DNA from: Streptomyces sp. NBC_01803
Lineage (GTDB): Bacteria; Actinomycetota; Actinomycetes; Streptomycetales; Streptomycetaceae
Reading direction: 5' to 3'
NCBI RefSeq assembly: GCF_035917415.1
Contig: NZ_CP109073.1
Coordinates: 124,001-188,000, forward strand
Length of the DNA: 64,000 nt
Each line of letters begins with the position of its first letter. The first letter of the stretch is position 1. A model generated the notes under the pieces. It saw nothing but the letters and a program-made list of their open reading frames with translations. It did not search any database and was not told the DNA's origin. The position numbers and the translations under genes are program-made. This document shows, one piece after another, positions 30,171 to 52,394 of this stretch.

Positions 30171-30206
30171 GGAGACAGCATGGTCACCGGAGACAGCATG
30201 GTCACC
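30171..30206 (+). repeat. Tandem 18-bp duplication of ribosome site and start codon
   Basis: GGAGACAGCATGGTCACC occurs twice in direct tandem (30171-30188 and 30189-30206). Each copy carries a GGAG Shine-Dalgarno, a 5-nt spacer and an in-frame ATG, so the methyltransferase gene has two equivalent start sites six codons apart. Confidence 0.95.
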
Positions 30207-30917
30207 GCCAACTCCACCGACTCCCGGCCGCCCTTCGACCAACTCGCCGTGCTCTACGACCGGTTCATCGGGGCGATGGACCGGGAGGGCAACCCGGCAC
30301 GGGACTGGCTGCTGACGCATCTGGTCGGCGGGGGGCGGGCGCTGGACGTGGGATGCGGGAACGGCCGCAACTGCCGCCTGGTCGCCGACCGTTACCGGGA
30401 GGTCGTCGGGGTGGACATCTCCGCGGACATGCTCCGGGTGGCCAGGAGCAAGGACAACCCGCCGAACGTCCGCTACGAGCGGCGCGACGTACGCGAGCTG
30501 TCCCCCGAACGCGACGGGGTCTTCGACGCCGTGTTCGCCATGAACAGCCTCTTCGCGATGGGCCCGGCCGAGGCCGTGCTGCCCCTCCTGCGGCCCCTGG
30601 TGGCGCCCGGCGGCCGGCTCGTCGTCCTGGACGTGACGCGGCCCGACGACGCGCCCGTGCCGGACGACGAGACACGGCAGACGTTCCACCCGTTCGAGGT
30701 GGCGCACACCGTCTACCGGCTGTCGGGCGACACCGAGGACGCGGTCGCCGCGCTGCGGTACATGCTCCACCCGGCGTGGCGGGAGATGAGCGCGGGACTC
30801 GTCCCGCCCACGCTCGGCGCGTTCCGCCGAGCCTACGAGGGTGTCGTCCCCGGTGTGGAGTTCGCCCCGGAGGTGGTGCCGACCCTGACCGGGGCGGTGT
30901 GGCGGGCACCGGTCTAG
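30180..30917 (+). CDS. SAM-dependent methyltransferase of the bisindole cluster (first of three)
   Basis: A 245-residue class I methyltransferase. The SAM-binding motif I is ALDVGCGNGRNC (about 50-61), motif II VVGVDISADML follows, and FDAVFAMNSLF and LVAPGGRLVVLDV are later Rossmann motifs. It is similar in length and layout to the two methyltransferases at 32447 and 33228, so the three are paralogues. In indolotryptoline clusters, such enzymes methylate the indole N, imide N or diol oxygens; which atom this one modifies is unknown. It is the left-most gene of the cluster and alone in orientation. Its 3' end shows homology to the downstream 57-bp repeats. Confidence 0.85.
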   Translation: MVTGDSMVTANSTDSRPPFDQLAVLYDRFIGAMDREGNPARDWLLTHLVGGGRALDVGCGNGRNCRLVADRYREVVGVDISADMLRVARSKDNPPNVRYERRDVRELSPERDGVFDAVFAMNSLFAMGPAEAVLPLLRPLVAPGGRLVVLDVTRPDDAPVPDDETRQTFHPFEVAHTVYRLSGDTEDAVAALRYMLHPAWREMSAGLVPPTLGAFRRAYEGVVPGVEFAPEVVPTLTGAVWRAPV

Positions 30918-31145
30918 CCGCCCCCGGAAGTGATGCCGACCCCGACCGGGGCGATGCGGCAAGCACCGGTCAAGCCGCCCCCGGAAGTGGTGCCAACCCC
31001 GACCGGGGCGATGCGGCAAGCACCGGTCAAGCCGCCCCCGGAAGTGGTGCCAACCCCGACCGGGACGGTGCGGCCGGCACCGGTCAAGCCGCCCCCGGAA
31101 GTGGTGCCAACCCCGACCGGGACGGTGCGGCCGGCACCGGTCTAG
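30911..31145 (+). repeat. Four 57-bp tandem repeats derived from the methyltransferase 3' end
   Basis: Units at 30911-30967, 30968-31024, 31025-31081 and 31082-31138 are nearly identical, followed by a partial copy ending in TAG. Each is 19 codons long and keeps the methyltransferase frame. They resemble the last 18 codons of that gene (PEVVPTLTGAVWRAPV). The gene's TAG stop at 30915 corresponds to AAG (Lys) in the inner units, and TAG returns only at 31143. Readthrough of the first stop would add a tail of PEVVPTPTG-type repeats. Confidence 0.95.
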
Positions 31146-32401
31146 CCGCCGTCCCGCTCCCCCGCGTCCGGGGTGCGGACGTGCTCGGGCCGCAGGCCGA
31201 CGCCCGTCATCCGGCTCAGCAGCCGCAGCAGGAACGGCCACCGCTCGAACGTGGAGCTGAGCCGGCCGGCGCCACCCATCACGCGGTCGCCCCGCAGCGC
31301 CCGGTCGACGGCGACGCGGTGGAAGAGCCGCTGGAACTCCTGGGTCAGCACGGTCGGCACCTGACGCCTGCGCTGCACCCGGGCCAGTGCCCGGTCGTCC
31401 GGCGGGCGGCCGGTGCGCCGGGCTTCGAGCAGCGGGCCGGCCAGCAGGTTCGCGGCGGCGGTCGCGTCCTGGACGGCGAGGTTGACGCCGTAGCCGCCGG
31501 CCGGTGACATGGCGTGCGCGGCGTCGCCGATGAACAGCAGCCCCGGGGCGTACCAGCGACGCAGCCGGTCGACCCGGACCTGGAGCAGCGGCAGCTCCTC
31601 CAGGCCGGTGACCTCGGTCGTCCGGTCGGCCAGGAAGGGCACCAGCTCGGCCAGGTCCCGCCGGAGCCGGCCGACGCCCTCGCGGCGCAGCCGGTCGTAC
31701 CCGCCCGCGCTCATCTCGTAGGAGACCTGCCAGTAGGTGCCGCGGTCGACGATGACGAAGACGCGGCCGTTCCCGATCCGCACCGTGAGCCGTTCGTCGG
31801 GGTCGTCGTCCCGCCGGGAGACGCGGAACATCAGCACGTCCATCCGCACGCCGCGGTCCCGGGGCCGCAGTCCGGCGGCGGCACGCAGCACCGACTTCCT
31901 GCCGTCGGCGGCGACGACGAGCGCGGCACGCACCGTGCGCTCGCCGTCCGGGGTGCGGCAGCGCACGCCGACGGCGCGGCCGTCCGCGCGCAGCAGTCCG
32001 GTGACCTCGGCACGCGTCCACAGCCGGAAGCCGGGGTAGCGGGCCGCCTCGGCCGTGATGAGGTTGAGGAAGTCCCACTGCGGCACGAAGACGACGTAGG
32101 GGAAGCGAAGGCCGAGGGCGCGGAAGTCGGCGATCAGCATGGGCCGGCCGTCCTGGACGAGGCCCATGGTCTCCAGCTTCCGGTGCGGCAGCTCGTGGAA
32201 GCGTCCGGCGAGCCCGAGTTCGTCAAGGATTTCGAGGGTGGAGGGGTGCACGGTGTCGCCGCGGAAGTCGCGGAGGAAGTCGGCGTGCTTCTCCAGCAGC
32301 ACGACGTCGACGCCGGAGCGGGCCAGCAGCAGCGCCAGCATCGCGCCGGCCGGTCCGGCGCCCACCACGCAGACGGTCGCGGTCGTGTCCTGCGGTTCCA
32401 T
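31142..32401 (-). CDS. FAD-dependent monooxygenase of the bisindole cluster
   Basis: A 419-residue group A flavoprotein monooxygenase. FAD motif VVGAGPAGAMLALLL (about 11-25), the DG motif VVAADGRKSVLR (about 160) and the GD motif FIGDAAHAMSPAGGYGVN (about 290-307) are all present; the C-terminal thioredoxin-like domain of larger members is absent. With the cluster's other flavin monooxygenase at 34193, it fits the X1/X2 pair of indolotryptoline pathways (BE-54017, cladoniamide), which oxidise and rearrange the indolocarbazole core. Which step it performs cannot be read. It is third in a minus-strand operon after two methyltransferases; its stop shares CTAG with the end of the repeat array. 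Confidence 0.85.
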   Translation of the reverse strand: MEPQDTTATVCVVGAGPAGAMLALLLARSGVDVVLLEKHADFLRDFRGDTVHPSTLEILDELGLAGRFHELPHRKLETMGLVQDGRPMLIADFRALGLRFPYVVFVPQWDFLNLITAEAARYPGFRLWTRAEVTGLLRADGRAVGVRCRTPDGERTVRAALVVAADGRKSVLRAAAGLRPRDRGVRMDVLMFRVSRRDDDPDERLTVRIGNGRVFVIVDRGTYWQVSYEMSAGGYDRLRREGVGRLRRDLAELVPFLADRTTEVTGLEELPLLQVRVDRLRRWYAPGLLFIGDAAHAMSPAGGYGVNLAVQDATAAANLLAGPLLEARRTGRPPDDRALARVQRRRQVPTVLTQEFQRLFHRVAVDRALRGDRVMGGAGRLSSTFERWPFLLRLLSRMTGVGLRPEHVRTPDAGERDGG

Positions 32402-32446
32402 GGCTCTCCAGGGGCGCGTGCGGGCCGGGGCTCTCGGGCGGCGGCG

Positions 32447-33196
32447 TCAACCCGCGGCGGGGGCCCGCCAGGCGACGGTGAAGACGCCGAACTCGCCGCC
32501 GCTGCGCTCGACGACGGCGCCGGGCAGGGCCGCGGTGTACTCCTCGGCGAACCGGTCGGCCGTCATCGGCACGCTGATCTCGCTGATCCGCAGCCAGGAG
32601 GGGCTGAGGATCGCCGCCAGGGCGGCGGTGGCGTCGGTCACGTCGCCGGTCCGGTCGTAGAGGGCGCGGGCCTGGCCGAACGCGAAGTCGGCCTGCCAGC
32701 CCTCGCTGCCCCAGGTGGGCGGACGCTGGGGCTCGATGATGAGGAGGACGCCGCCGGGCGCCACGACACGCCGCAGCAGCTCCAGCAGCGGGGCCGGCTC
32801 CCCGACGTGGACGAGGCAGCTGAAGACCACGACGGCGTCGAAGAGCCCGTCGTCCTCCGGGGTCAGGCTCCGGATGTCGCGGACCTGATAGCGGATGGTG
32901 GGGCCCGACCGTTCGCGCTCGGCGATCTCGATCATCGCGGGCGCCGCGTCGATGGCCAGCACCTCGTCGTACCGTTCGGCCAGGGCGACGCTCCACCGGC
33001 CGGTGCCGCAGCCGGCGTCCAGCGCCCGGCCGCCGCCGGGGAGGTACGCCTCCAGCCAACGGGCGAGCCGGCCGCCGGGCTCGTCCAGGACCCGGGTGAA
33101 GCGTTCGTAGGGCCCGGCGAGCTCGCTGAACAGCGGCGCGGTGTCCCGTTGCGGGCGGGTGGTGTCGTCGGCCGGTCCGTGGTGGTTCGTCAACAC
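32447..33196 (-). CDS. SAM-dependent methyltransferase of the bisindole cluster (second of three)
   Basis: A 249-residue class I methyltransferase with motif I ALDAGCGTGRWSVAL (about 55-69), VLAIDAAPAMIEIAERERS, FDAVVVFSCLVHV and VAPGGVLLIIEP. It is closely related to the neighbour at 33228 (shared MIxIAxRxRS and TAALPG segments), so the pair probably arose by duplication. The GTG start has GGGAG 6 nt upstream. It lies between the other methyltransferase and the FAD monooxygenase in one operon. Expected role: N- or O-methylation of the bisindole core. Confidence 0.85.
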   Translation of the reverse strand: MLTNHHGPADDTTRPQRDTAPLFSELAGPYERFTRVLDEPGGRLARWLEAYLPGGGRALDAGCGTGRWSVALAERYDEVLAIDAAPAMIEIAERERSGPTIRYQVRDIRSLTPEDDGLFDAVVVFSCLVHVGEPAPLLELLRRVVAPGGVLLIIEPQRPPTWGSEGWQADFAFGQARALYDRTGDVTDATAALAAILSPSWLRISEISVPMTADRFAEEYTAALPGAVVERSGGEFGVFTVAWRAPAAG

Positions 33197-33227
33197 GTGT
33201 GTCTCCCTACCTGGTCGGGGGCTTCGG

Positions 33228-33947
33228 TCAGCGGGCCGGCCGCTGCCAGTAGGCGGTGAGCAGCCCGGGGAAGACGTGCTCCATGAACGTGCTCCCGGGC
33301 AGGGCCGCGGTGTATTCCCGCCGGAATTCCCGGCCGTTCATCGGGGCGGTCCGTTCGCTGATCTCGGTCCAGTTACGGTGACTGAAGAGGCGGAGCACGT
33401 TGATGGAGCTCTCCAGCCGCCCGGTCACCTCGTACGCGGTCCTGGCGACCGTGAAGGCGAAATTGATCCGCCAGTTCTCCTGGCCATAGTCGGCGGGGCG
33501 TTCGGGCTCGAAGACGACGAACGCCCCGCCGGGCGCGACGAGGGCGGCGAGGTGGGGCAGGATCACCCGCGGCTCGCCCATGAGGAAGACGCTGCTGAAA
33601 CCGAACACCACGTCGAAGAGGCCGTCCTTGGCGGGCGTCAAGTCGAAGGCGTCGCGGACCTGGTAGTCCACGTTGGACCGGGACCGGTCGCGCCGGGCGA
33701 TGTCGATCATGGCGGGGGCGGCGTCGGCGCCGACGACCTCGTCGTAGAGGGCGGCGAGCATGACGGTGTAGCGGCCGGCGCCGCAGCCGATGTCCAGCGC
33801 GCGCCGGCCCTTCGGGAGATGGGCCGCCATCCATTCACTGAGCGGGTTTTCGGCGGAATCCAGAGTGCCGCTGAATTCCTCGTACAATTCGGCGATCTCG
33901 TCGAACAAATCGGTGATGGTGGGCGCACCCGATCGCGCTGCGGCCAT
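33228..33947 (-). CDS. SAM-dependent methyltransferase of the bisindole cluster (third of three)
   Basis: A 239-residue class I methyltransferase with motif I ALDIGCGAGRYTVML (about 49-63), VVGADAAPAMIDIARRDRS, FDVVFGFSSVFLMGEP and VAPGGAFVVFEP. It is the first gene of the operon leading to the next methyltransferase (31 bp gap) and the FAD monooxygenase (45 bp gap). A GGGGAG ribosome site precedes the ATG. Position-specific role unknown; it is one of three candidate tailoring methyltransferases. Confidence 0.86.
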   Translation of the reverse strand: MAAARSGAPTITDLFDEIAELYEEFSGTLDSAENPLSEWMAAHLPKGRRALDIGCGAGRYTVMLAALYDEVVGADAAPAMIDIARRDRSRSNVDYQVRDAFDLTPAKDGLFDVVFGFSSVFLMGEPRVILPHLAALVAPGGAFVVFEPERPADYGQENWRINFAFTVARTAYEVTGRLESSINVLRLFSHRNWTEISERTAPMNGREFRREYTAALPGSTFMEHVFPGLLTAYWQRPAR

Positions 33948-34192: not shown

Positions 34193-35878
34193 GTGGAGAC
34201 AGGAGCGGCCGGGGCGCGGTCGGAGGCGGGGGTGCTGGTCGTCGGCGCCGGCCCGAGCGGGCTGGTGACGGCTCTGGAGCTGGCGCGGCACGGCGTGCGG
34301 GCGCGGGTGGTCGACCGCAGGGCGGGTCCGGCCCCGGCCGAGCAGTCGCGGGCGACGATCGTGCACGCGCGGACCCTGGAGGTGCTCGACCGGTTCGGGC
34401 TGGCCGACGAGGCGCTGGCGAGCGGGGTGCCGATCACGCGGGTCGAGGTGCGCGAGCGGCGCCGCCCGACGGCGCATCTGCCGCTGGCCGGCGGTGGCGT
34501 GGAGGGGCGGACGCGGTTTCCGTGCGCGCTGTCCGTGGCGCAGTCGGAGACCGAGCGGATCCTGACGGCGGCGCTGGCCGCGCGGGGCGTACCGGTCGAG
34601 TGGGGGCGGCCGGTGGAGAACGTGGCCCCGGCCGGGGACGGCGTCGAGGTGCGCCTGGGCGGTGGCGAGACGCTGCGGGTCCGCTGGGTGGTGGCCGCCG
34701 ACGGCGCCGGGAGCACCACGCGGCGGTGCCTGGGGATCGGGTTCATCGGCGGCACCTATCCGCAGCGCGGCCTGCTGGCCGACGTGACGTTCGCGGCGGA
34801 CCCGCCGCCGCCCCGGCTGCGGCTCACCCTCACGCGCGGCGGCTTCGTCGGGGTGCTGCCGATCTCCCCCGGCCGCTACCGGCTCTTCGGGGCCGTGCCG
34901 CCCGGCCTGGCGCCCGGCGGCGCCGGGGGCCAGGTCTCGCACGACCCCTATCAGCGGCTCGACGCCCAGGAGCTGCGGCGGTGGTTCGACGGCTACTTCG
35001 AGGCGACCGGAACGCTGGACGAGGTGATCTGGGCCTCGCTGTTCCGGTTCCACAGCCGGATCGCCGACCGGTTCGCCGCCGGGGGGGTGTTCCTCGTCGG
35101 CGACGCCGCGCACGTGCACAACCCGGCGGGCGGCCAGGGGCTGAACCTGGGGGTCGGCGACGCGGCGAACCTGGGCTGGAAGCTGGCGCTGGTCGAACGC
35201 GGTGAGGCGCCGCCCGGGCTGCTCGACAGCTACGAGGCCGAACGCCGTCCGGTGGCCCGCGCGATCACCCGGAACACGGACCGGGGCTTCCGGGTGGAAA
35301 CCACCGCCAACCCGGTGGCGATGTGGCTGCGCGGCCATGTCGCGATGCGGCTGATCTCCGTGGCGTCCCGGTGGTCGGCGGTGCGCCGGACCGTTTTCCG
35401 GACACTGTCGCAGACCTGGATCGGGTACCGGGGCAGCCCCGCCGTGGCGGCCGGCCGGGGCCGGGGCCCGCTGCGGCCGGGCGACCGGGCGCCGCACGCG
35501 CCGCTGGCCGCGCCCGGCGGCGGCCTGCTGGACCTGCTGCGGCCGGGCGGTTTCCTGCTGCTGGCGTTCGAGGGCACGCGGCCGGCACCGGCCGGGCGGC
35601 GTCCGGACGCCGCCGCGCTCGGCGCGGCCCTGGCGGGCCGGTACACCGCCGGAGTGCCGGTGCGGGTGATTCCCCGGGCCGAGGCCGCCGCGCACGCGGC
35701 GTACGGGGCGCGCCGGGCCCGGCTGGTGCTGCTCCGGCCGGACGGCCACGTCGCCTGGGCCGGCGCCTGGCCGGCGGCCGGGCCGCCGCGCCGGCTGACG
35801 GCGTGTCTGGACCGCCTGCTGACGGCCCGCGCCGGGGCGCCCGGCAAGTTCCGCAAGTCCGGCAAGTCCGGGACCTGA
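34193..35878 (+). CDS. Three-domain FAD monooxygenase of the bisindole cluster
   Basis: A 561-residue aromatic-hydroxylase-type flavoprotein. FAD motif VVGAGPSGLVTALELA (about 16-31), ARTLEVLDRFGL, the DG motif VVAADGAGSTTRR (about 165) and GD motif LVGDAAHVHNPAGGQGLNLG (about 300) are present, followed by a thioredoxin-like C-terminal domain (LVLLRPDGHVAWAG). It is related to RebC but diverged from it, since a better RebC match lies at 37606. It probably corresponds to one of the X1/X2 oxygenases that epoxidise or open the indolocarbazole. The GTG at 34193 is chosen because GGAGG lies 4 nt upstream; GTG 34181 is also possible. The C terminus ends in a basic FRKSGKSGT tail. Confidence 0.85.
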   Translation: METGAAGARSEAGVLVVGAGPSGLVTALELARHGVRARVVDRRAGPAPAEQSRATIVHARTLEVLDRFGLADEALASGVPITRVEVRERRRPTAHLPLAGGGVEGRTRFPCALSVAQSETERILTAALAARGVPVEWGRPVENVAPAGDGVEVRLGGGETLRVRWVVAADGAGSTTRRCLGIGFIGGTYPQRGLLADVTFAADPPPPRLRLTLTRGGFVGVLPISPGRYRLFGAVPPGLAPGGAGGQVSHDPYQRLDAQELRRWFDGYFEATGTLDEVIWASLFRFHSRIADRFAAGGVFLVGDAAHVHNPAGGQGLNLGVGDAANLGWKLALVERGEAPPGLLDSYEAERRPVARAITRNTDRGFRVETTANPVAMWLRGHVAMRLISVASRWSAVRRTVFRTLSQTWIGYRGSPAVAAGRGRGPLRPGDRAPHAPLAAPGGGLLDLLRPGGFLLLAFEGTRPAPAGRRPDAAALGAALAGRYTAGVPVRVIPRAEAAAHAAYGARRARLVLLRPDGHVAWAGAWPAAGPPRRLTACLDRLLTARAGAPGKFRKSGKSGT

Positions 35879-36045: not shown

Positions 36046-41197
<5,152 letters not shown>

Positions 41198-41222: not shown

Positions 41223-41775
41223 GTGATGGAACCGCGGGACGAGTGCGGGACGGCGGGCGGACCGGTGACGGCGGACCGGTTCCGGGAGCTGATGAGCAGA
41301 TTCCCGACCGGGGTGTCGGTGGTGACGGCGCGCGATCCGGAGGGCCGCCCGTGGGGGGCGACCTGCTCGTCGCTGTCCAGCGTCACGCTGACGCCCCCGA
41401 CGCTGCTGTGCTGTCTGCGCGCCGACGGCCGCACGTTGAGGGCGGTCCTGGCCGGCGGCCGGTTCGCGGTCAACCTGCTGCGGGCGGACGCGCGGCACGC
41501 CGCCACGGTGTTCGCCACACCGTCCGGCGACCGGTTCACGGAGGTGCCGTGGCGGCCCCGGCCGCCGTCCGGTCTTCCCCTTCCGCACCGGGACGCGTTC
41601 GCGTTCGCCGAGTGCCGGGTCAGCCGCCGGTTCGCCGTGGGCGACCATGTGGTCGTCGTGCGCGGTGACCGGGGTGGATCTCGCCACCGGACTGCCGCTG
41701 GTGTACGGCCTGCGGGAGTTCCGGTCGTGGTCGCCGCCGGCCGGCGCGGCGGCACGGCCGGACGCGGCGGGCTGA
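41223..41775 (+). pseudogene. rebF: Flavin reductase (RebF type) gene with a frameshift
   Basis: From the GTG, the frame encodes a typical two-component flavin reductase: FRELMSRFPTGVSVVTARDPEGRPWGATCSS, FAVNLLRADARHAATVFA and RFAVGDHVVVV. At about 41661 the homology moves to the next frame, AVTGVDLATGLPLVYGLREFRSW, and stops at 41773. One extra base (or two missing) explains this; the restored protein is about 183 residues, the normal length. The uninterrupted frame instead runs on with an unrelated Arg/Gly-rich tail to 42077. The protein would supply FADH2 to both halogenases. A sequencing error, programmed slippage or real inactivation are all possible. Confidence 0.85.
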
Positions 41776-41802: not shown

Positions 41803-43050
41803 TCACTCCCGCCGAGTCGTGGCCAGCCGGCGCGGTCCGTGAAACACCAGGTCCTGGCGGTACGGCACGGCGTCGTCGGCCAGCCGCAGTCCGGGGAGCA
41901 TCGTCAGCAGCCCCTCGACGCCGGCCTCGACCTCGATCCGTCCGAGGGCCGAGCCGAGGCAGTAGTGGGCCCCCATGCCGAATCCGCAGTGCCGGTGGCC
42001 GTCCCGGTCGAACCGTACGGTGTCGGGCTGCTCGAACCGGTCCGGGTCGCGGTTGGCGGCTCCCAGCACGACGGTGACCTTGTCGCCGCGCCGGATGCGG
42101 TGGCCGCCGACGGTCTCGTCCTGGTAGGCCCACCGGGTCACCATCTGCGCGGGCGAGTCGTAGCGGATGAACTCGTCGACCGCCGCCGGGACCAGCTCCG
42201 GGCGCGAGCGCAGCGTGGCCAGCACGCCGGGCTGCCGCAGGAGCAGCAGCGCGGACTTGGACAGCGCGGTCGTCGTCGCCTCGTGGCCGCCGAGGAGCAG
42301 GTGCACACAGGTGCCGATGAGAACGTCCTCGGCGGCCAGGTCGTCGTCCCAGAGCTCGGCGAGCAGCGCGGAGAGCAGATCGTTCCCCGGTGTGGCGCGG
42401 CGCTCGGCCAGGGCTGCGCGGAAGTACTCCGCCAGGGCGCGCGCGGCCTCCTCGGCGGCCACCAGGCGCGGTTCGCGCGGTCCGGGCCGGAAGGTGGTGG
42501 CCCGCTGGAACACGGCCGCCCGCTCGCGCAGCCAGTCCTGGTCCCCGGACGGCACGCCGAGCAGCTCCAGCATCGTCAGCACGGGGATGAGCGCCGCGTA
42601 CCGCTCGACCAGGTCGACGGTGGGCTCGGCCGCGAGCCGGTCCACCAGCCGCCGGACGATTTCCCGCACGCGCGCGCGCGTGCCCGAGCGCATCCGGGCG
42701 GCCAGGCACTCGGCCACGACGGCGCGCAGCCTGGTGTGGCGCGGCGGGTCCATGAAGACCAGCCAGTTGTCCACGAGCGCGCTGAGCACCCGGTACCGGG
42801 GCGGCACGATCCCCACCGACGTCTCGGGACCGACGCCGGCGACCGACGCCCGGCGGCCGAAGCCGCGCCCGGCCAGCACGGCGGCGGCCTCCTCGTAGCG
42901 CAGGACCAGCCACTCGGGCTCGCGTCCGCTGCCGGGACGCAGCACGCGGTGCAGGGCGCCGGCGTCGCGGTAGCGGCGGTAGACGGGGTAGGGGTCCTCG
43001 ATGCTGGCGGTGAGGGCCCGGTGGAAGTCCTCGGGATCCGGCTTCGGCAT
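41803..43050 (-). CDS. rebP: Cytochrome P450 (RebP/StaP type)
   Basis: A 415-residue P450. The heme-ligand loop is FGMGAHYCLGSALGRIE with Cys364, the I-helix is LLLGGHEATTTALS (about 247), and the K-helix ExxR is in DEFIRYDSP. In known bisindole pathways the P450 couples the two indole rings of chromopyrrolic acid by aryl-aryl coupling to build the indolocarbazole. Its place directly after the chromopyrrolate synthase gene (3-bp gap) supports this. It needs ferredoxin partners, none of which are encoded in the cluster. Confidence 0.92.
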   Translation of the reverse strand: MPKPDPEDFHRALTASIEDPYPVYRRYRDAGALHRVLRPGSGREPEWLVLRYEEAAAVLAGRGFGRRASVAGVGPETSVGIVPPRYRVLSALVDNWLVFMDPPRHTRLRAVVAECLAARMRSGTRARVREIVRRLVDRLAAEPTVDLVERYAALIPVLTMLELLGVPSGDQDWLRERAAVFQRATTFRPGPREPRLVAAEEAARALAEYFRAALAERRATPGNDLLSALLAELWDDDLAAEDVLIGTCVHLLLGGHEATTTALSKSALLLLRQPGVLATLRSRPELVPAAVDEFIRYDSPAQMVTRWAYQDETVGGHRIRRGDKVTVVLGAANRDPDRFEQPDTVRFDRDGHRHCGFGMGAHYCLGSALGRIEVEAGVEGLLTMLPGLRLADDAVPYRQDLVFHGPRRLATTRRE

Positions 43051-43053
43051 CGG

Positions 43054-46000
43054 TCACAGCTCCCGGGGGTCCATGGTCGTGAACTGGTCGGCGAACAGGC
43101 GCAGCATTCCCGGCACCGACTCGGCGAGCCGGGGGATCTTCTCGGCACTGTCCGCGAGTTCGGCGCAGCGGGCGGCGATCCACCGCGCGGCGACGTCGGC
43201 GCGGGGGATGGGGACGGGATCGCCGCCCATCTCGAAGGACGGTCCCGCGGTCCTGCCGGGGCGTCCGGAGGGCAGTGTGACGATGTGTTCGCCGAGCGGG
43301 CGCAGCACGCCCGTCATGAGGTCCAGGGCGGCGTTCATCAGCCGGGAGCGGCGCAGGCTCTTGTCGGGGCTGAGGCCGAAGTGCTGGACCATCAGCCGCA
43401 TGGTCAGCGCGTACGAGCGGTTGAACAGGTCGATCGCGGCGCGCGCCTCCGGGTCGGTGACCAGCTCGGCACCCGGGTGGCCGGGGCGCAGCGTGGGGTT
43501 GCGGGGGACGGGATAAGCGGGCTCCCAGGGAACGCGCCGTCCGCCCGGCCCGACGGCGTGCTCGGCGGCGAGCGCCTCGGCCACCCGCAGGAACGTGTCG
43601 TAGTGCGAGTCGGAGGGCAGCGGCGCGTCGATGACGTTGCCCTCGCCGTGTTCGGTGACGAAGTCGATGGCGAAGACGGCGCTGGACACGTCGTCGACCT
43701 CCAGTTGGTAGTCGGGATGGGTGACGTTGAGCGTTTCGCGCATGAAGAGGTGGTGTTCGCCGCCGCCGCGGCCCCGGTCGACCAGGAAGACGCCGTCGAC
43801 GGTCTGGACGGCGGCGCGGATCGCCGCGTACAGCTCGCTGAGGGAGCCGTAGGCGAACGGCGGCGCGCCGGGGCCGGCCGGGCCGGGCGCGTGGCCGGTC
43901 AGGTGGTGGGGCCGTTCCAGGGCGATGAACCGCTGGAGGCTGCCCCGGCCGAAGCCCTCCAGGCACAGGTCGAGGGGGACGGGCAGCAGGTGCCCGGCGG
44001 TGGTGAAGTCGATGTCGGGCAGGTGGAAGGGCTCGCCGGTGGCCATGAGGATGTTGTTGATGACCAGGAAGTGGGTCATCTCCTCGCGGGCGACGCCGAG
44101 CAGGCTGCCGCGCAGTCCCCCGTCGAGGGCGTGCGGGCCGTCGCCGCACAGCAGGCGGGCCTGCTCCGGGGTCCACGTGCCGCGTTCGACGTACTGGCGG
44201 GCGGCGGAGTGGGTGGGGATCGACCAGACGGCGTAGAGGTACTGGAGCATGACGGCGAGCTCGATGGTGGCCGCCTGGCGCAGCGCCGCGCACAGGGCGT
44301 CGCGGGTGGTGAGGGGCGCGGGCCGGGGCGGCGCGGCCGGCGGCGGGGGCGGTGTCTGGCGGGCTCCTTCCACGCGGCGCGCGTACGTCAGCAGCAGGTC
44401 GGCCTGCGGCGCGGTCAGGTCGCGGGTGGAGGGCATGTAGAAGGTCTTGTCCTTGTGCCGCGGGTCGCACATGAGCCAGATGATCCGGGCGTGGGTAGCG
44501 ACCTTGGCGGGATCCGCCAGGCTCATGACCTCGGCCTTCATGAACGGGTACATCAGCTCGAAGTAGGCGAGGACCTCCTGGTGGACGAGGTCGAAGGTGA
44601 CCTGCTCCGGGGGGACGTCGGCCAGGTACCAGTGGTCGGGCAGGACGCGCGCGGACAGCAAGCCGGCCGCGGACCAGTAGCCGAGCCGGTCGTCGTTGTC
44701 ATAGCCCGCGGCGGCCGAGCCGGGCGCGTCGGGATCGCACGGCAGCGGGGTGCCGGGCGGCAGCAGCAGGATGTGCGCGGCACCGGCCCGCACTCCCCCG
44801 ACGGTCAGCCGACCGTGCCCCGACACGTCGGTGGCCAGGACGGCGGTGGCGCTCAGCTCCTCCGGCGGGCCGCCTGGGCGCGCGGCGCGGCCGAAGCCGA
44901 CGACGCGGATGGCGGCGGCCCGCGCGCCGGGCGCGGTGGCCCGGGGGTCCAGCGGCAGGGCGCGCGGATTGCAGAACTGGTGGACCTCGATGCCGTCGAC
45001 GGCGGCGGGCCGGCCGCGGACGAAGGAGCGAACGGTGATGTCGACGGCGTGGTCGTCACCCGTTCGGGGGTTGGGGTGTTCGAGGAAGAGGCTCGCCCGG
45101 TCGGTCAGGACGGTGATCTCCTCCTCGGCCAGCAGCACCGTGCCGTCGCGGGCCGCCAGTCTCAGCGCCTCGTCCGGGTCGTCGGCGCGGCCGTCGGCGC
45201 GGGGCGCGGTGAGGACGCCGCCGGTCCGTTCGTAGGCGGCGCCGAGGTAGGCGTCGCGGGGGAAGACGGCGAGGAGGCGCCCGGAGGCGGTGCGCAGCTC
45301 CAGGTCGCCGAGATCGAGGCGGGGGCCGAGCAGGTGGAGCGCGCCGCCGGGGGTGCGCGGGTCGGGAACGGGGGCGCGGCTGACGACGGGCAGCGCGGTG
45401 ACCATGTCGGCCGTCGCGCGTCCGTCCGCGAGGCGCACGGTGAGGTTGTGCAGCGGCGAACGGCGGCCGGCCCGGCGCCCCTCGCGGGCGGTGAGAAGGC
45501 GGCCGGTGGGGCAGGTGCGCGGTTCGGGGGGCCGCCAGGGCGCGACGGTGCCGCGCAGCTGCCACCGGTCGGGAGCGCTGTCGCGGGCCGGCGTGGCCAT
45601 GTTGAACAGGGCGAAGCGCACGAGTACTCCGCCGTATCCGCCGCCCTCGACCGCGTCGCGCAGCGCGGACACCGCCGGGGAGCCCGCGGCGGCGGCCGTC
45701 CAGCGGAGCCGGTCGTCCGCGTCCACGACGAACTGGTGGACGACCGAGCGCGTCAGCTCCCGGCTCAGCGGATGGTCGCCGGTCTCCAGGACGTACCGCG
45801 GGTTCTGCCACCGGGGTGGCGACACGTCGCGCACGTCGCCGATGGCGAGGTAGCCGACGTCGTGCGAGCGGCCCAGGCGACCCAGGGCGAGCTGGCCGAC
45901 CATCACGGTGGTGGTCCAGTTGGACGCCGGGTCGACGTCGAAGACGCGGGCGCGGTTGGCGGTGGTGGCGAGGTACTCGTTGTAGTGGCCCCACAGGTCC

Positions 46001-46293
46001 ACGGCCCTGCCGACGACGGGGTCGGTGGTGTCGGCACGCCCGGGCTCGGTCTCGGTGGCGACGACGGTGGCGTCCACCCAGAAGTGGCCGTTGCCGCCGA
46101 AGTTCCAGCCCTTGACGCCCCGCCGGTCGAGGTAGGCGTGGTACTCCTCGGCGGGCCGGTGCACCGGGAACGGCGCCGGGCCGGCGATGGGCCGGTTGGT
46201 GGCCAGATCGAGCAGCCCGGAGCGGGGGCCGGTGGGCAGGCGCGTGACGGCGGTGCCCGCGAAGTGGAGGCGCGGCAGGTCGAAGACGCTCAT
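43054..46293 (-). CDS. rebD: Chromopyrrolate synthase (RebD/StaD/VioB family)
   Basis: A 1079-residue protein that begins MSVFDLPRLHFAGTA and contains VKGWNFGGNGHFWVDATV and LVHQEVLAYFELMYPFMKAEVMSLAD, hallmarks of the RebD/VioB family. A ferritin-like domain (about 670-900) holds ATIELAVMLQYLYAVWS and GVAREEMTHFLVINNILMATG with Glu and His iron ligands. The enzyme dimerises two indole-3-pyruvate imine units into chromopyrrolic acid. This defines the pathway type. Its ATG overlaps the stop of the oxidase gene (ATGA), and the P450 follows 3 bp later, so O-D-P form a coupled operon. Confidence 0.96.
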   Translation of the reverse strand: MSVFDLPRLHFAGTAVTRLPTGPRSGLLDLATNRPIAGPAPFPVHRPAEEYHAYLDRRGVKGWNFGGNGHFWVDATVVATETEPGRADTTDPVVGRAVDLWGHYNEYLATTANRARVFDVDPASNWTTTVMVGQLALGRLGRSHDVGYLAIGDVRDVSPPRWQNPRYVLETGDHPLSRELTRSVVHQFVVDADDRLRWTAAAAGSPAVSALRDAVEGGGYGGVLVRFALFNMATPARDSAPDRWQLRGTVAPWRPPEPRTCPTGRLLTAREGRRAGRRSPLHNLTVRLADGRATADMVTALPVVSRAPVPDPRTPGGALHLLGPRLDLGDLELRTASGRLLAVFPRDAYLGAAYERTGGVLTAPRADGRADDPDEALRLAARDGTVLLAEEEITVLTDRASLFLEHPNPRTGDDHAVDITVRSFVRGRPAAVDGIEVHQFCNPRALPLDPRATAPGARAAAIRVVGFGRAARPGGPPEELSATAVLATDVSGHGRLTVGGVRAGAAHILLLPPGTPLPCDPDAPGSAAAGYDNDDRLGYWSAAGLLSARVLPDHWYLADVPPEQVTFDLVHQEVLAYFELMYPFMKAEVMSLADPAKVATHARIIWLMCDPRHKDKTFYMPSTRDLTAPQADLLLTYARRVEGARQTPPPPPAAPPRPAPLTTRDALCAALRQAATIELAVMLQYLYAVWSIPTHSAARQYVERGTWTPEQARLLCGDGPHALDGGLRGSLLGVAREEMTHFLVINNILMATGEPFHLPDIDFTTAGHLLPVPLDLCLEGFGRGSLQRFIALERPHHLTGHAPGPAGPGAPPFAYGSLSELYAAIRAAVQTVDGVFLVDRGRGGGEHHLFMRETLNVTHPDYQLEVDDVSSAVFAIDFVTEHGEGNVIDAPLPSDSHYDTFLRVAEALAAEHAVGPGGRRVPWEPAYPVPRNPTLRPGHPGAELVTDPEARAAIDLFNRSYALTMRLMVQHFGLSPDKSLRRSRLMNAALDLMTGVLRPLGEHIVTLPSGRPGRTAGPSFEMGGDPVPIPRADVAARWIAARCAELADSAEKIPRLAESVPGMLRLFADQFTTMDPREL

Positions 46294-47756
46294 GCGGGCA
46301 CTCCCGCGTCGCCCGGCACGCCGCCGCGCCGGGTGAAGGTGTCGATCCGGGTCACCGCGTCGAGGGCCGTCTCGATTCCGGCGTCGATCCAGGCCGGGGT
46401 CGCGGAGCAGTGCTCGCCCGCGAAGAAGAGCCGGCCCTCGGGGCGCGCCGTCCGTTCCGCCTCGCGGGCGCGGCCCGCCTCGGTGAGCCCCCAGCGGCGG
46501 GCCGCGCACCCCCGGTACCAGGGCCGTTCCCCCCAGGCCACGCTGACGATCTCCCGGACGGCGGGCGGCGGCCCGAGCTGGGGATGGAGATCCCGCAGCT
46601 CACCGAGGACGGTCGCGTGCCGCCGGGCGCTGGGCATGCGGCCGAGGACGTCGGCGTCCTCGGCGATCGTGTAGCTCCCGAGCAGCGCGGCCCCGGCGGC
46701 GGGGTCGCCGTCGGCCGGGGGGTAGTACGTCTGCCGGACGCGACCGCCGGGAGCCGATCCGCCGCCCGTGATGCCCTCGTCGGTCCAGAACGCCGTCCGG
46801 CAGTGCAGGGCCACCTTGGTGGCCGAGCCGTAGTCCAGTGTCCGTATGACCTCCAGCTTGTCGTCGGTGACGCCGGTCAGGGGCAGCCGACGCAGCACGG
46901 AGAACGGGATGGTGCACAGCACGACGGGGTAGGTGACGGCGGCCGGGGCCAGCCGGCCGCCGAGCCTCACCCGCACTCCGTCCGGGCGCACGTCGATCCC
47001 GGTGACCTCGTGCCCGGTGCGCACCGGGCGGCGCAGCCGGGCGGCGATGCCGTCGGTCAGCTGGGACATGCCGCCGGCCAGCCGCACCATGCCGCGCCCC
47101 GACTCCCGCAGCAGGTCGTCCAGGAAGCCTTCCAGACGCGGGTCGCAGGCCGCCCGCAGCTCCGGATGGGCGCTCAGCGCGGCGCCGACGTCGGCCCGGC
47201 CCCCCTCGACGAACGGCACGAGGTCGAACCGGCCAGCCACCGCGAGGAGCTTCCCGAGGTCACGCCGCACCACGACGCGCAGTTCGGCGGGGCCCAGCGC
47301 GCGCACCATGGCGTGCAGCCAGCCCGTGAACAGCAGCGCGTCGGGTCGGTGCGGCCCGCCCCCGGCGCGTACCTCGGTCTCCCGGGCCAGCGGTCCGGCC
47401 GCGTCCCGCACCCGCAGCAGGCGGCGCCCGAGGCGCAGTTGATTGTTCGGGTCGCTGAGGATGTTCGCGAAGGGCCGCAGCCGGGAGCGCAGGCCCAGCC
47501 GCTCGATGTACCGCAGGGTCATGGCGTGATCCGGGGAGATACGCATGGCCCCCAGCTCCGCCCGCGGCCCGCCGGAGCCGGCGAAGCGGTGGGTGAACAC
47601 CCGTCCGCCGATCCGCGTGTCGGCCTCCAGCACCACCACGTCGTGGCCGAGCCGTTCCAGCTCCCAGGCCGCGACCAGTCCGCTGATGCCCGCGCCCAGC
47701 ACCGCGACGGCGCTCCCACCGCCGCCGGGCGACGGCCTCACTCCCGATCCGTTCAC
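46290..47756 (-). CDS. rebO: L-amino acid oxidase (RebO/StaO type)
   Basis: A 488-residue FAD-dependent L-tryptophan oxidase of the monoamine-oxidase fold. FAD motif VLGAGISGLVAAWELERLG (19-37) and VLEADTRIGGRV follow, and the C-terminal RLFFAGEHCSATPAWIDAGIETALDAV region is the second FAD contact. It oxidises (chloro)tryptophan to the indole-pyruvate imine used by the next enzyme. The GTG start is chosen because AAAGGGGGG precedes it; a far longer open frame upstream is a shadow of the membrane-protein gene. It leads the O-D-P operon. Confidence 0.94.
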   Translation of the reverse strand: MNGSGVRPSPGGGGSAVAVLGAGISGLVAAWELERLGHDVVVLEADTRIGGRVFTHRFAGSGGPRAELGAMRISPDHAMTLRYIERLGLRSRLRPFANILSDPNNQLRLGRRLLRVRDAAGPLARETEVRAGGGPHRPDALLFTGWLHAMVRALGPAELRVVVRRDLGKLLAVAGRFDLVPFVEGGRADVGAALSAHPELRAACDPRLEGFLDDLLRESGRGMVRLAGGMSQLTDGIAARLRRPVRTGHEVTGIDVRPDGVRVRLGGRLAPAAVTYPVVLCTIPFSVLRRLPLTGVTDDKLEVIRTLDYGSATKVALHCRTAFWTDEGITGGGSAPGGRVRQTYYPPADGDPAAGAALLGSYTIAEDADVLGRMPSARRHATVLGELRDLHPQLGPPPAVREIVSVAWGERPWYRGCAARRWGLTEAGRAREAERTARPEGRLFFAGEHCSATPAWIDAGIETALDAVTRIDTFTRRGGVPGDAGVPA

Positions 47757-47922: not shown

Positions 47923-47970
47923 CGCGCGCGCCTCCCGACGTCCGTGCCGGGGACGCTGGGATACCTCGTC

Positions 47971-49395
47971 ATGGGCCTCGCGTCACTGTCACGGCCGGCC
48001 GGCGGGACGCTGTCCGCGCTGGTCCGGCTCACGCCGCCGATCGGCACCGTCTGGCTGGCGCGCGTCCTGCTGGACGGGCGCGGGCCCGGCTCCGGCGCGG
48101 CGTGGTGGGTGGCGGGCGCGGCGGCGGCCGTCCTGGCCGTCCGGCTGCTGCCGCTCGGCGCCGGTACGGGGTCCGGTGCCGGGGCCCGCCGTGCGGCGGG
48201 CAGTGCCGGGCGGGCCGCGGCGGCGGTCACGGGCGGGGCGGCGCTGGGGTGTCTGCTGTGGACGGACCAGGCGCTCGCGGTGGTCACGGCGGCGCCGGTG
48301 GCGGTCGGCGCGTGGGCCGAACGGCGCGCCGCGGGCCTGCGCGCGGCCGGGACACGGGCGGCCGGGCGGGAGCTGGCGGCGGTCGCCGCCGGCCTCGGGC
48401 GGCTGGCCGACGCGGTGACGGCCGCCGGGCCGCCCGACCGGGCGGAGGCGGCCACGGCCGCGCACCTGGCGGCCGTGGACCGCTTCCACGAGGTATTCGA
48501 GGCCAGGACCCGCCGGGTGGTCACGGTCGGGTGGCTGGCCGAGACCGCCCTCTCGCCGGTGACGCTGATCGCCGTGGTCCTCGCCTCGGGTGCCGTGCTG
48601 GGGACGCCGGGCGCGGAGCTGCCGGTCTTCCTGGTGCTCGCCCCGGTCGTCGGCGGCTGCGCGTCGGCGTGGGCCGGCCCGGGCCGCGAGCCGGGGCCGG
48701 GGCCGCCACCGCGCGTGGCGCGGCGCCGGGTGGGCGGTGCGCTCCGCCTGCTGCGCGGACCGGGCACCGGCCGGGCGGTGACCGCCGCGGCCGGCTGCGC
48801 GGTGCTGCACGCCGCCGCGCCCATCGTGGCGACCGCGGCGCTGACACGGCTGCTGACGGCGGACGGCGCGGGGGCGCGGCCGTGGCTGTGCGCGCTGCTC
48901 GCGGTCGCCGCGGGCCACGCCGCCGCGTCGCGGTACGCCGCCGGTCGGGCGCGGGCGACGGGAGTGGAGCTGGCGCGCCGGCTGGCGTACCGGGTCGCGG
49001 CCCGCACACTGACGATGCCGGCCGACCGGCTGGACGGCGACGCGACGCGGGGGCCGGCGCGGCTGGCGACGGCGGACGTGGTCGCCGTCTCGGGTCTGCT
49101 GGTGCACCATCTGCGGCCCCTGGCGGCGGCGCTGGTGGTGCCGGGAACGGCGGCGGCCGGGTGCCTGTGGCTCGCGCTGGCGGGCGGGCGGGAGCCGGCG
49201 GTGCTGGTCGCGTCGCTGGTGCTCGGGATGTGGTGCGCGGACGCGACGCACGCGGCGCTGGCGACGCGCGGCGCTCTCCGGCTCCCGCTGGCGGCGGCGT
49301 GGCGGCTGCGGGACGTCCTTTTCCCACCTCACCATACGATAGGGATATCTCAAGGAAAACAGAGGCGGCGGAAAAGGAAAAGGCGCCGACCATAA
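47971..49395 (+). CDS. ABC-exporter-like membrane protein without ATPase domain
   Basis: A 474-residue, strongly hydrophobic protein. Two ABC type-1 exporter transmembrane units can be traced: a first, shortened one (residues about 1-230, with the cytoplasmic-loop pattern AAVDRFHEVFEARTRRVVTVGW) and the beginning of a second (about 240-450, with ELARRLAYRVAARTLTMPADRLDGDATRGPARLATADV). No Walker A, signature or Walker B motif is present. After about residue 450 the frame enters A-rich promoter DNA and encodes a basic QRRRKRKRRRP tail unlike any family, suggesting 3' truncation. It may be a decayed exporter of the pathway product or a novel TMD-only protein. Start uncertain (GTG 47944 possible). 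Confidence 0.6.
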   Translation: MGLASLSRPAGGTLSALVRLTPPIGTVWLARVLLDGRGPGSGAAWWVAGAAAAVLAVRLLPLGAGTGSGAGARRAAGSAGRAAAAVTGGAALGCLLWTDQALAVVTAAPVAVGAWAERRAAGLRAAGTRAAGRELAAVAAGLGRLADAVTAAGPPDRAEAATAAHLAAVDRFHEVFEARTRRVVTVGWLAETALSPVTLIAVVLASGAVLGTPGAELPVFLVLAPVVGGCASAWAGPGREPGPGPPPRVARRRVGGALRLLRGPGTGRAVTAAAGCAVLHAAAPIVATAALTRLLTADGAGARPWLCALLAVAAGHAAASRYAAGRARATGVELARRLAYRVAARTLTMPADRLDGDATRGPARLATADVVAVSGLLVHHLRPLAAALVVPGTAAAGCLWLALAGGREPAVLVASLVLGMWCADATHAALATRGALRLPLAAAWRLRDVLFPPHHTIGISQGKQRRRKRKRRRP

Positions 49396-49523
49396 AGCGG
49401 CAGGAATTCCCCGACCCATCGGAGCGCTCCCCGCACTCAGGCCATATTGCCCGGCCCCTGAGGCGTTGGATAAACTCACCATTCACCGAGTCCGCGAGTC
49501 CCACAAAGCGTGAAGGGGCCTGG

Positions 49524-52394
49524 GTGAACGGTTCGAAAACATATGATCGGGGCAATTCCAAGGTAGGCGGAATACAGCGACGGGCGCCGTTGCGTCCGCT
49601 GCGCGGCCGGGAGGCCCACGTGGGCCGGATCACCGCGGGCCTGCACACCGTGACCCGGACCGGACAGAGCAGGGTCCTCACGCTGGAGACCCCGGCCGGG
49701 GCGGGCAAGACCCGGCTGCTCATCGAATCGATCGGTATCGCCGTCCGGTACGGCTTCGCCGTCGTCAGCGGCGTCGTCACCACCTCCGACGCGCTTCTCG
49801 GAGCCGTTCCCACCGCGCTCGACGCACTGGTCCACCGGCTCGGCGCGTTCGACAACGAGAAGGAGCTGCGCTCCCGGCTGCGCGCCGCCCTGGAGCGGGG
49901 GCAGGCCCTGGTGGTGCTCGACGACCTCCATCTGGCCGAGCCGCCGGTCCTGGCGGCGCTGGGCGATCTGATCGCGCAGTCGCAGGGGCACCCCGTGCTG
50001 TGGATCCTCGCCTCCGGCACCGACCCGGGCGCCGCGCGGCGGGGCGTGCGCGAGATCAGCCTCGGCGGGCTGCCGCTGGAGCGCCTGCCGGATCCGGGTC
50101 CGCTGACCGGCCAGGCGGTGGCCGACGTGGTCGCCGACCACCTGGGCGCCGTGCCCGATCCGTCGATCGTCACCCTGGCGGAGAGCGTCGGCCCCACGCC
50201 GCGCGCCGTGATCGACCTGGTCCGGGGCCTGATCGAGGGCGGCGAGGTGCGCGTCGCGGACGGCGTCGCCCGGCTGCGGTCCCCCGCCGCCCCGCTCACC
50301 GCCCCGGCGGACGGCGTGCGCGCGCCCGCGCCGGTGCCCGCGTGCTTCGCCGTGCTGGTGCGCGAGCGGCTGCGGACGCTGTCCCCGTTCACCGTCAAGG
50401 CGCTGAAGCTGGCGGCGGTCCTGGGCTCGTCGTTCACCCCGACCGACCTGGCGACGCTGCTCGGGGAGTCCCCGCCGGATCTGCTGGCCGCCTTGGACGA
50501 GGCGATCGCCTGCGGGCTGGTGAGCTGCGGCGCGACGGACTTCGCCTTCCGCAGCGAGGCGCTGTGGCGGGCGGTCCTGGACTCGGTGCCACCGCCGATG
50601 TGCGCGCTGCTGCACCGCCAGGCGGCGGCCATGCTGCTGGCCCGCCCGGACGGCGTCGAGGCCGCCGCGCTGCATGTCGCGCACATCGCCCAGCCCGGGG
50701 ACATGGAGGCGGTGCGGATCATCGCGCACGCGGCCGACCGCCTGCTCGTCGCGGAGCCGGCCACCGCCGCGTCGCTCGCATCGCGCGGCATGGGGCTCCT
50801 CGCGCCGGATCAGGATGGGTGGCTCGGCTTCGCCGCCACCGCCGTGGAGGGGCTGGTACGGGCGGGAGCCGCCGACCGGGCGCTGCTCACCGCGCGGGAG
50901 GCCGAGGCCCGGCTCGCCGCGTCCGCCCGGGGGCCGGCGGCGGAGGGCGGCGACGGACCCGCCGCGTTCCGTTCATGGCTGTCGGTCGCGCTGCTGCTGG
51001 CGGGCCGGCCGCACGAGGCGGGCCGGGCCGCGTGGGAGGCCCTGGCCGTCGCCCCGGACGGCTCCGGGCACGGGGAGCGCGCGGAGATCTGCCTGCTGAC
51101 CGCCCGGTGCCTGACCGGGGAGGACGGACCTGCCGGGGGCGCCGGGCCCGCCGGGGAGGACGGGCCTGCCGGGGACACCGGTCCGAAGGGTGGTCGGCCG
51201 GCCGTCGTGCGGGCCGCCGCGCTGACCGTGGACGCCCTCCGCCTCTGGGGCGACGGCGAGCCCGGCCGGGCGATCGCGTTGCTGCGGGAGGCCGGTGAGC
51301 TGGACCCGGCCACCGGAGCCGTCCGGGTTCTCGACCCGCGGTGGTTCCTCGCCTCGTTCCTCACCGGCACCGGCGAGCTCGACGAGGCGCTCGCCGTCGC
51401 CCAGGCCGCCGCGCGGACCTCCGCCGAGGCGGGCGCGCCGGCCGTCGCCGCCATCCTGCGGGCCCCGGTGCACCTGGCGCGCGGGCGCCTCGACGAGGCC
51501 GACGAGGACGCGCGGGCCGGGCTCGCCGGGGGCCGTGGCGTCTGCCTGCCCCTGCTCGCGCCGCACGCCTGGCGCGTCCGCGCCCTGGTGGCACTGCGGC
51601 GCGGCCGGCTGAGTGAGGCCGGGGAGCATCTCGACGTCCTCGCCCAGGACTTCCCGCCCGACGCCGCCCACCCCTGGCGGGCCATGCGCGCCCTGCTCAC
51701 CGCCGAGATAGCCGGTGCCAGGGGCGGTCCCGCGGCGGCCCTGGAGAGCCTGGCGGAGGTGTGGGCGTGCCCCCGGGCACGGCGGGCGCTGCTGCTGGAG
51801 GACCCGTCGGCCACCGCCCGCTGCGTCCGCTGGGCGCTGGACGCGGGCCGCCCGGACGTCGCCCGCACCGCCGTGGCGACCGCGGAGTCGCTGCGGGAAC
51901 GCGGCCGGGAGCTGCCCGCGCTGCGGACCGCGGCGGCCCACGCCCGTGCCGTGCTCGACGGGGACGCCGCCGCTCTGGCGCGGTTCGGCCCGCTGCACGC
52001 GGACCCGTGGGCCCAGGCCGGCGCGGCGGAGGACCGGGCACGGCTGCTGCTCGCCCGCGGCGACCGCGAGGGAGCGGTGGCCGAGTTGGAGCGGTCACTG
52101 CACGTCTACGGCACCCTCGGCGGCGAGCGGGACGGCGCCCGGGTCCGCCGGGAGCTGCGCCACCTCGGGGTCAGGCGCCGGCACTGGACGCACACGCCGC
52201 GCCCGGTCTCCGGCTGGGACAGCCTGACCAAGGCGGAACGGCAGGTGGCCGAGCTGGTCGCGGGCGGACTGACGAACCGCCAGGTGGCCGGCCAGCTCTT
52301 CGTCTCGCCGCACACGGTCGGCTTCCATCTCCGGCAGGTCTACCGGAAGCTGGGGCTGCGGTCCCGCATCGACCTGATCCGTCTGAGGTCCTGA
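49524..52394 (+). CDS. LAL-type LuxR transcriptional regulator of the cluster
   Basis: A 956-residue large ATP-binding LuxR regulator. Walker A ETPAGAGKT (Lys62) and Walker B LVVLDDLH (Asp133-134) mark the N-terminal AAA-like domain, a helical repeat region follows, and residues 901-956 form the LuxR HTH (LTKAERQVAELVAGGLTNRQVAGQLFVSPHTVGFHL). The size and position match the RebR/StaR-type activators of bisindole clusters. Residues about 532-558 form a Gly-X-Y collagen-like linker. The GTG start has GAAGGGG 5 nt upstream; open frame extending far upstream is a shadow. It probably activates the promoters carrying the shared motif. Confidence 0.93.
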   Translation: MNGSKTYDRGNSKVGGIQRRAPLRPLRGREAHVGRITAGLHTVTRTGQSRVLTLETPAGAGKTRLLIESIGIAVRYGFAVVSGVVTTSDALLGAVPTALDALVHRLGAFDNEKELRSRLRAALERGQALVVLDDLHLAEPPVLAALGDLIAQSQGHPVLWILASGTDPGAARRGVREISLGGLPLERLPDPGPLTGQAVADVVADHLGAVPDPSIVTLAESVGPTPRAVIDLVRGLIEGGEVRVADGVARLRSPAAPLTAPADGVRAPAPVPACFAVLVRERLRTLSPFTVKALKLAAVLGSSFTPTDLATLLGESPPDLLAALDEAIACGLVSCGATDFAFRSEALWRAVLDSVPPPMCALLHRQAAAMLLARPDGVEAAALHVAHIAQPGDMEAVRIIAHAADRLLVAEPATAASLASRGMGLLAPDQDGWLGFAATAVEGLVRAGAADRALLTAREAEARLAASARGPAAEGGDGPAAFRSWLSVALLLAGRPHEAGRAAWEALAVAPDGSGHGERAEICLLTARCLTGEDGPAGGAGPAGEDGPAGDTGPKGGRPAVVRAAALTVDALRLWGDGEPGRAIALLREAGELDPATGAVRVLDPRWFLASFLTGTGELDEALAVAQAAARTSAEAGAPAVAAILRAPVHLARGRLDEADEDARAGLAGGRGVCLPLLAPHAWRVRALVALRRGRLSEAGEHLDVLAQDFPPDAAHPWRAMRALLTAEIAGARGGPAAALESLAEVWACPRARRALLLEDPSATARCVRWALDAGRPDVARTAVATAESLRERGRELPALRTAAAHARAVLDGDAAALARFGPLHADPWAQAGAAEDRARLLLARGDREGAVAELERSLHVYGTLGGERDGARVRRELRHLGVRRRHWTHTPRPVSGWDSLTKAERQVAELVAGGLTNRQVAGQLFVSPHTVGFHLRQVYRKLGLRSRIDLIRLRS
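51117..51197 (+). repeat. Imperfect 36-bp tandem duplication in the regulator gene
   Basis: Two 36-bp copies beginning GGGGAGGACGG encode GEDGPAGGAGPA and GEDGPAGDTGPK. Together they make eight perfect Gly-X-Y triplets, a collagen-like linker inside the LAL regulator. Confidence 0.85.

Follow-up and report, generated by a model that had tools for sequence, protein, structure and literature searches.

What kind of product is made by a bacterial gene cluster that joins the enzymes of tryptophan dimerization to two different tryptophan halogenases? This question is raised by a locus in Streptomyces sp. NBC_01803, carried on a stretch of 64,000 nt (hereafter the window). The genome consists of one contig of 5847022 bases, in which the window occupies positions 124001-188000. 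A preliminary description, prepared from the DNA letters alone, had named a series of gene classes in this region. All of them were located at window positions 30180-52394 when genes called by a codon-usage script were annotated with Pfam and NCBIfam and compared with solved structures in the PDB. This collection is best explained, in our view with moderate probability, as a tryptophan-dimer cluster of the indolotryptoline type that has two halogenases and whose product is likely a chlorinated and methylated tryptophan dimer. Direct support is provided by the gene content, by the orthology of two enzymes called X2 and D, by the residue classes of the monooxygenase C and of the halogenases, by the conformity of a cytochrome P450, and by synteny with a cluster of strain MP131-18, a producer of lynamicins and spiroindimicins.

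The O-D-P-C core for an indolocarbazole imide is present in the window, as it is in the abe, cla, and bor clusters. Tryptophan oxidase O (46290..47702, minus strand) matches PF01593; its start, like those of X1 and the regulator R below, was judged by eye from homologs and probably lies upstream of the listed coordinate. Protein D (43054..46293, minus strand) is a chromopyrrolic acid synthase of the VioB/StaD type that matches PF12902 and scores 726 bits against TIGR04492, short of the cut-off of 1250 set for that model. The StaP/RebP-type P450, P (41803..43050, minus strand), scores 335 bits with StaP, ahead of 214 bits for the next best, and the flavin monooxygenase C (37606..39222, minus strand) scores 601 bits with RebC and 156 bits with the next family. 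Two further flavin monooxygenases, three related methyltransferases, a LAL-family regulator, and two halogenases complete the set that the preliminary description had listed. It was also correct in reporting no glycosyltransferase, in that a Pfam scan of 40 proteins from the window detected no such domain. To its list can be added a frame-broken flavin reductase gene, a transporter-like gene (U), and the synteny with MP131-18.

X2 and D both bear on the product class. X2 (31142..32401, minus strand; PF01494) forms one clade with its MP131-18 counterpart and ClaX2 of the cladoniamide pathway at 100/99 in a tree of 21 rows, and is an AbeX2/ClaX2 ortholog. In the 30-row tree for D, the window protein joins that of MP131-18 (99) and then the cladoniamide D (99). 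The X2 result is relevant to the idea that the route ends with a chlorinated and N-methylated indolocarbazole, either the imide or its diol, with X2 carrying out no rearrangement. The known pathway needs just P and C to reach the imide, and the X2 ortholog of MP131-18 resides in a cluster for which the excerpts of PMC5301196 report no indolotryptoline. Nevertheless, the window X2 clusters with ClaX2, an enzyme postulated to carry out the rearrangement (PMC3158105), and it sits on a shorter end branch than the MP131-18 protein (0.19 versus 0.45). An early stop of this kind thus seems improbable.

The type of C was assessed at 10 positions where RebC differs from the chain printed as 4eip. The window protein agrees with RebC at seven of these, including Q117, A231, R239, and T241, whereas V216, A37, and S48 are as in the other set. 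ClaC agrees with RebC at six of the same positions. Homologs with the residues of the other set are found at loci L018 (except for A231) and L033, and the P450 at L018 is 78% identical to StaP. This other set is of the StaC type, and the distinction bears on the choice between imide and lactam.

X1 (34232..35878, plus strand; PF01494 and PF21274), whose start probably lies somewhat upstream, is probably a flavin monooxygenase of the AbeX1 type. It is 87% identical to a protein of Streptomyces sp. URMC 129, 85% to one of S. specialis, 57% to an "AbeX1-like monooxygenase" from an uncultured bacterium, and 53% to ClaX1. A rapidly built 72-row tree, which takes in 67 of the 120 listed homologs, places X1 within a 41-row clade (100) that includes the environmental "AbeX1-like" protein. 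It departs from the references at only two of 141 conserved columns, and the reference median is also two. Among 246 genomes of the genus, the only match at an E value of 1e-150 or better is the window's own, and X1 is therefore uncommon in this sample. Co-occurrence with C and P was judged from longest contigs of equal size. Homologs of all three proteins recur at two such lengths (42692, which is URMC 129, and 30640), and homologs of two of the three recur at ten more (17513, 38105, 76293, 74763, 65226, 74624, 45668, 7874, 15220, and 74493). This pattern suggests that the three travel together in shared clusters.

The P450 initially gave the impression of a degenerate enzyme. With a first set of 19 StaP-type references, departures from invariant columns numbered 10 of 74 for the window protein, 11 of 74 for its MP131-18 counterpart, and 9 of 83 for ClaP. 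We prefer a larger set of 64 references, which includes the clade of the window P450, because in the first one MP131-18 was the sole other representative of that clade. By this measure the window P450 departs at two of 64 conserved columns, where the references average 1.2 in a leave-one-out comparison with a maximum of 7, and the notion of degeneracy was abandoned. On the same columns the P450s of MP131-18, P0245, and S. marincola depart at 6, 5, and 9 positions, respectively, and all three deviate from the consensus F403 (StaP numbering). In MP131-18, L replaces F in the FHGP motif.

The two halogenases were compared using the Trp1 to Trp4 motifs in Table 1 of PMC8269204. H5 (36046..37596, minus strand; PF04820, E 1.1e-136) has PyrH as its best PDB match (792 bits, 67% identity) and agrees with SpmH in all four motifs, which is the Trp-5 pattern. 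H5 is therefore predicted to be a tryptophan 5-halogenase of group B1. H6 (39608..41197, plus strand; PF04820, E 5e-160) is more complicated. The preliminary description had called the pair PyrH-like and RebH-like; the first label holds, but the second needs qualification, since the overall nearest PDB entry is BorH (900 bits, 71% identity), ahead of RebH (820 bits), with 65% identity to Thal. Even so, two of its three motifs, HLFGL at Trp2 and NNSNYY at Trp4, are RebH-like and of the Trp-7 type. Compared with the motifs of Trp-7 group A1 (ATIP, HLF, and (G/S)NYY), H6 lacks only the first and has ATVPNL, a Trp-6-type sequence, instead.

Several published results help to interpret this mixture. 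One known 6-halogenase in the same table does not carry a Trp-6-type Trp1 motif, and a 6-halogenase with exchanged Trp2 and Trp4 motifs yielded 6- and 7-products in a ratio of 1:4 (PMC8269204). Five positions in Thal are described whose exchange yields a 7-halogenase (PMC7644825). H6 carries the exchanged residue at four of the five and BorH shares one of them, although T360 is not discriminating because it is also found in BorH and several 6-type relatives. On the strength of the Trp2 and Trp4 motifs, the residues at the Thal positions, and the 1:4 exchange result, H6 is predicted to chlorinate mainly C7, with some C6 possible. The possibility that H6 is a plain BorH-type Trp-6 enzyme became less likely after the motif comparison.

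If these assignments are correct, chlorination at 5 and 7 is predicted, whereas the indolotryptolines described in the sources consulted carry chlorine at 5 (cladoniamides and BE-54017; PMC3158105) or 6 (borregomycin A; PMC11840605). Analogues would be of interest because a cladoniamide has been reported as a V-ATPase inhibitor (PMC13252584). The halogenase motifs were also compared at other loci. Four Streptomyces clusters (L012, L013, L027, and L028) hold one Trp-6-type halogenase with HPFG and (T/N)NGSYY motifs together with O and D, and neither C nor P was matched in the 23 kb read at each locus. HPFG and TNGSYY are found at L069, L070, L071, and L074; genome G423 (L072) has HVFGL and NNSNYY, and L073 has SNANYY.

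The three methyltransferases are mutually 40-46% identical, and each was recognized by Pfam as dependent on S-adenosylmethionine. MTa (30180..30917, plus strand; Methyltransf_25) is nearest to ClaM1 of S. uncialis (50%), an imide N-methyltransferase whose counterpart AbeM1 methylates the imide nitrogen (PMC3158105). MTb (32447..33196, minus strand) is 46% identical to MTc and 41% to ClaM1. MTc (33228..33947, minus strand) is 44% identical to ClaM1 and has homologs near D at L012, L027, and L028, leaving L013 as the exception among the four Streptomyces clusters mentioned above.

From these genes we infer the catalytic steps, the chlorine positions, and the product, as follows. H5 would introduce chlorine at C5 of tryptophan and H6 would act mainly on C7, with some C6 possible, both supplied with reduced flavin (FADH2) by the cluster reductase, if it still works, or by another reductase. 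O and D would then produce a chlorinated chromopyrrolic acid, and P together with the RebC-type C would close the ring to give the imide. Dihydroxylation by X1 would be followed by opening and rearrangement of the indolocarbazole by X2; removal of abeX2 has been reported to cause a diol to accumulate. MTa may methylate the imide nitrogen. MTb and MTc may be responsible for additional methylation, for which nitrogen is a more likely target than the tertiary alcohol.

The earlier preference for an indolotryptoline over a glycosylated indolocarbazole is thus favored by the grouping of X2 and D with their cladoniamide counterparts, the predominantly RebC-type C, the putative AbeX1-type X1, and the absence of a glycosyltransferase among the proteins scanned, but several observations weigh against it. 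The O-methyltransferase ClaM3 gave no tblastn match in the window at 1e-3, and ClaY and a partial ClaT were likewise unmatched there. C departs at nine of 140 conserved columns, just beyond the 90% point of its references (8; maximum 17). The P450 has Ala in place of an I-helix Thr that is invariant across the first set of 19 references of the StaP type; the same Ala is also seen in other members of the window P450 clade. H6 has a Trp-6-type sequence at one of its three motifs. ClaX1 falls outside the window's X1 clade. Moreover, because homologs of X1 are also present in other genera, Mycobacteroides and Nocardia among them, X1 taken alone is weak evidence for product class.

A final unfavorable point is the flavin reductase gene (41265..41775, ends approximate; plus strand). 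Its PF01613 match (108.6 bits) covers 41292-41660, the frame is broken near 41660, and the C-terminal end sits in the next frame. The protein is 64% identical to the MP131-18 reductase and 47% to ClaF, and relatives have intact copies. This break could be the first sign of a cluster that is decaying or silent. The remaining core frames are open, however, and the break may be a sequencing error. Halogenases are able to use other reductases, and six further PF01613 matches elsewhere in the genome could stand in for the broken one. We judge decay or silence to be very unlikely.

The closest known relative is the spiroindimicin/lynamicin (lyn) cluster of Streptomyces sp. MP131-18. Synthase D was used to scan genome contigs, which produced 28 loci from 71 matching stretches. 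Each locus was read at 18-23 kb, so outer genes escape this comparison (claH of S. uncialis, for example, apparently lies beyond L010), and within these limits only MP131-18 (L009) bore both halogenase types. Its lyn cluster, SBA_07018-07026 in PMC5301196, is the same locus with the gene order R, U, O, D, P, flavin reductase, H6, H5, X2. Identities to the window are 79% for H5, 70% for O, 68% for H6, 66% for D and X2, 65% for R, and 64% for P. To the left, nine genes at window positions 19964-29994 are syntenic with MP131-18 and share 67-92% identity, although one match spans 62 residues only, and each genome has one or two genes there without a partner. Between the syntenic anchors the window additionally holds C, X1, and the three methyltransferases, none of which has a match among the predicted genes of the 36-kb stretch analyzed around the MP131-18 cluster. 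By gene order, SBA_07026 is in our reading the AbeX2/ClaX2 ortholog, although it is annotated as a "flavin reductase" in PMC5301196.

This relationship makes it necessary to consider bisindole pyrroles of the spiroindimicin/lynamicin type as the true products, with P, C, X1, and X2 persisting as leftovers. The window has the full set of two halogenases, O, D, P, X2, U, and R from that locus, and window and MP131-18 proteins are sisters in the trees for D, P, X2, and H6. The MP131-18 cluster is described as the sole candidate found for the lynamicins and spiroindimicins of that strain, and the excerpts of PMC5301196 include no gene-removal evidence for it. Its two halogenases (SBA_07024/07025) are presumed there to act at 6'/6'' and 7'/7'', which we read from the proton numbering as indole C5 and C6. 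Yet C and X1 are present and open in the window, unlike in MP131-18 (the one spiroindimicin/lynamicin member compared), and together with P they show about as many departures from conserved columns as other members of their families do.

Evolutionary rates also argue against leftovers. Relative-rate tests between the window and MP131-18 comprised 15 comparisons, and the p values are uncorrected for multiple testing. Rates for D, O, and R are not significantly different (ratios of 0.97-1.39). H6 has evolved faster in MP131-18, not in the window, with all three outgroups (ratio 2.0-2.6, p of 5.3e-4 or less), and its MP131-18 version has HVFAP at Trp2 and an aberrant Trp4 region. P is also faster in MP131-18 with two near outgroups (1.9-2.1, p = 0.0015 and 0.0049), but the difference is not significant with ClaP as the outgroup (1.19, p = 0.47). 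X2 leans in the same direction (1.5, p = 0.066), whereas H5 is slower in MP131-18 with one outgroup (p = 0.02) and not clearly so with the other (p = 0.14). Bisindole pyrroles therefore seem an unlikely outcome for the window cluster, if less so than an early stop at the imide or diol.

The rate pattern is consistent with a relaxation of constraint on the spiroindimicin side. Because H6 and P evolve about twofold faster in MP131-18 and D, O, and R do not, the data suggest that an ancestral cluster of the indolotryptoline type lost genes and thereby gave rise to the spiroindimicin clusters. For strain SCSIO 03032, spmP and spmX2 of the spm cluster were reportedly found in 2017 to be dispensable for spiroindimicins, a point that also counts in favor of the leftover reading. 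We tentatively extend this proposal, with less confidence than the class assignment itself: spiroindimicin/lynamicin clusters would be reduced forms, and the window cluster, probably along with those of URMC 129 and S. specialis, would keep the fuller state and make 5-/7-chlorinated (up to tetrachlorinated) N-methyl indolotryptolines. Such a history would link two natural-product families, the spiroindimicins and the indolotryptolines, at one chromosomal locus and would explain how one could have originated from the other by gene loss.

Two additional genes complete the cluster. U (47944..49395, plus strand) is 39% identical over 319 aa to its MP131-18 counterpart, which by gene order is the putative transporter of PMC5301196; a Pfam scan of U gave no match. 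R (49620..52394, plus strand; PF00196), whose start probably lies upstream, is a LAL-family LuxR regulator and is 40% identical to ClaR. To the right of the cluster, positions 53792-58321 encode ABC transporter components (two permeases and a solute-binding protein) and a glycoside hydrolase family 32 protein, none with a counterpart in the 36-kb MP131-18 stretch. The genome also carries a third tryptophan halogenase at 459017-460549, which has the Trp-5 motif type, is 72% identical to PyrH, and lies beside two long open frames, each of about 2900 residues and on opposite strands.

How, then, does this cluster compare with known systems? The cladoniamide cluster of S. uncialis has O, D, P, C, X1, X2, M1, a flavin reductase, and a LAL regulator that are homologous to those of the window at 40-60% identity, but its gene order is different, it includes the unmatched ClaM3, ClaY, and ClaT, and it has one halogenase, of the Trp-5 type (PMC3158105). 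As the preliminary description had maintained, the known clusters of this class carry one halogenase in the sources consulted: cla and abe are tabulated in this way (PMC3158105), and the borregomycin cluster is described with BorH only, a Trp-6 enzyme with HPFGL and TNGSYY motifs (PMC11840605). Rebeccamycin-type indolocarbazole clusters share the O-D-P-C core, the RebC-type C, and the RebH-like NNSNYY of H6; the window differs from them in having X1 and X2 and no glycosyltransferase among the proteins scanned.

A pair of halogenases in a bisindole cluster is not by itself a novelty. A bisindole pair is already in print for MP131-18 at the same locus (PMC5301196), and a similar motif pair exists in G423 (L080 and L081), which belongs to the same order but another family. 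There, halogenases of the Trp-5 and Trp-7 motif types flank O, D, C, and P in a bisindole cluster at a spacing of ~17 kb, accompanied by a LAL regulator and by glycosyltransferase-like and sugar-nucleotide-like genes (named by eye from their first residues), and X1 and X2 were unmatched in the 40 kb read. Open-licence literature on bisindole clusters yielded no title or abstract on the window cluster. What the titles, abstracts, and excerpts consulted do not describe is the presence of such a halogenase pair together with a RebC-type C, X1, and X2.

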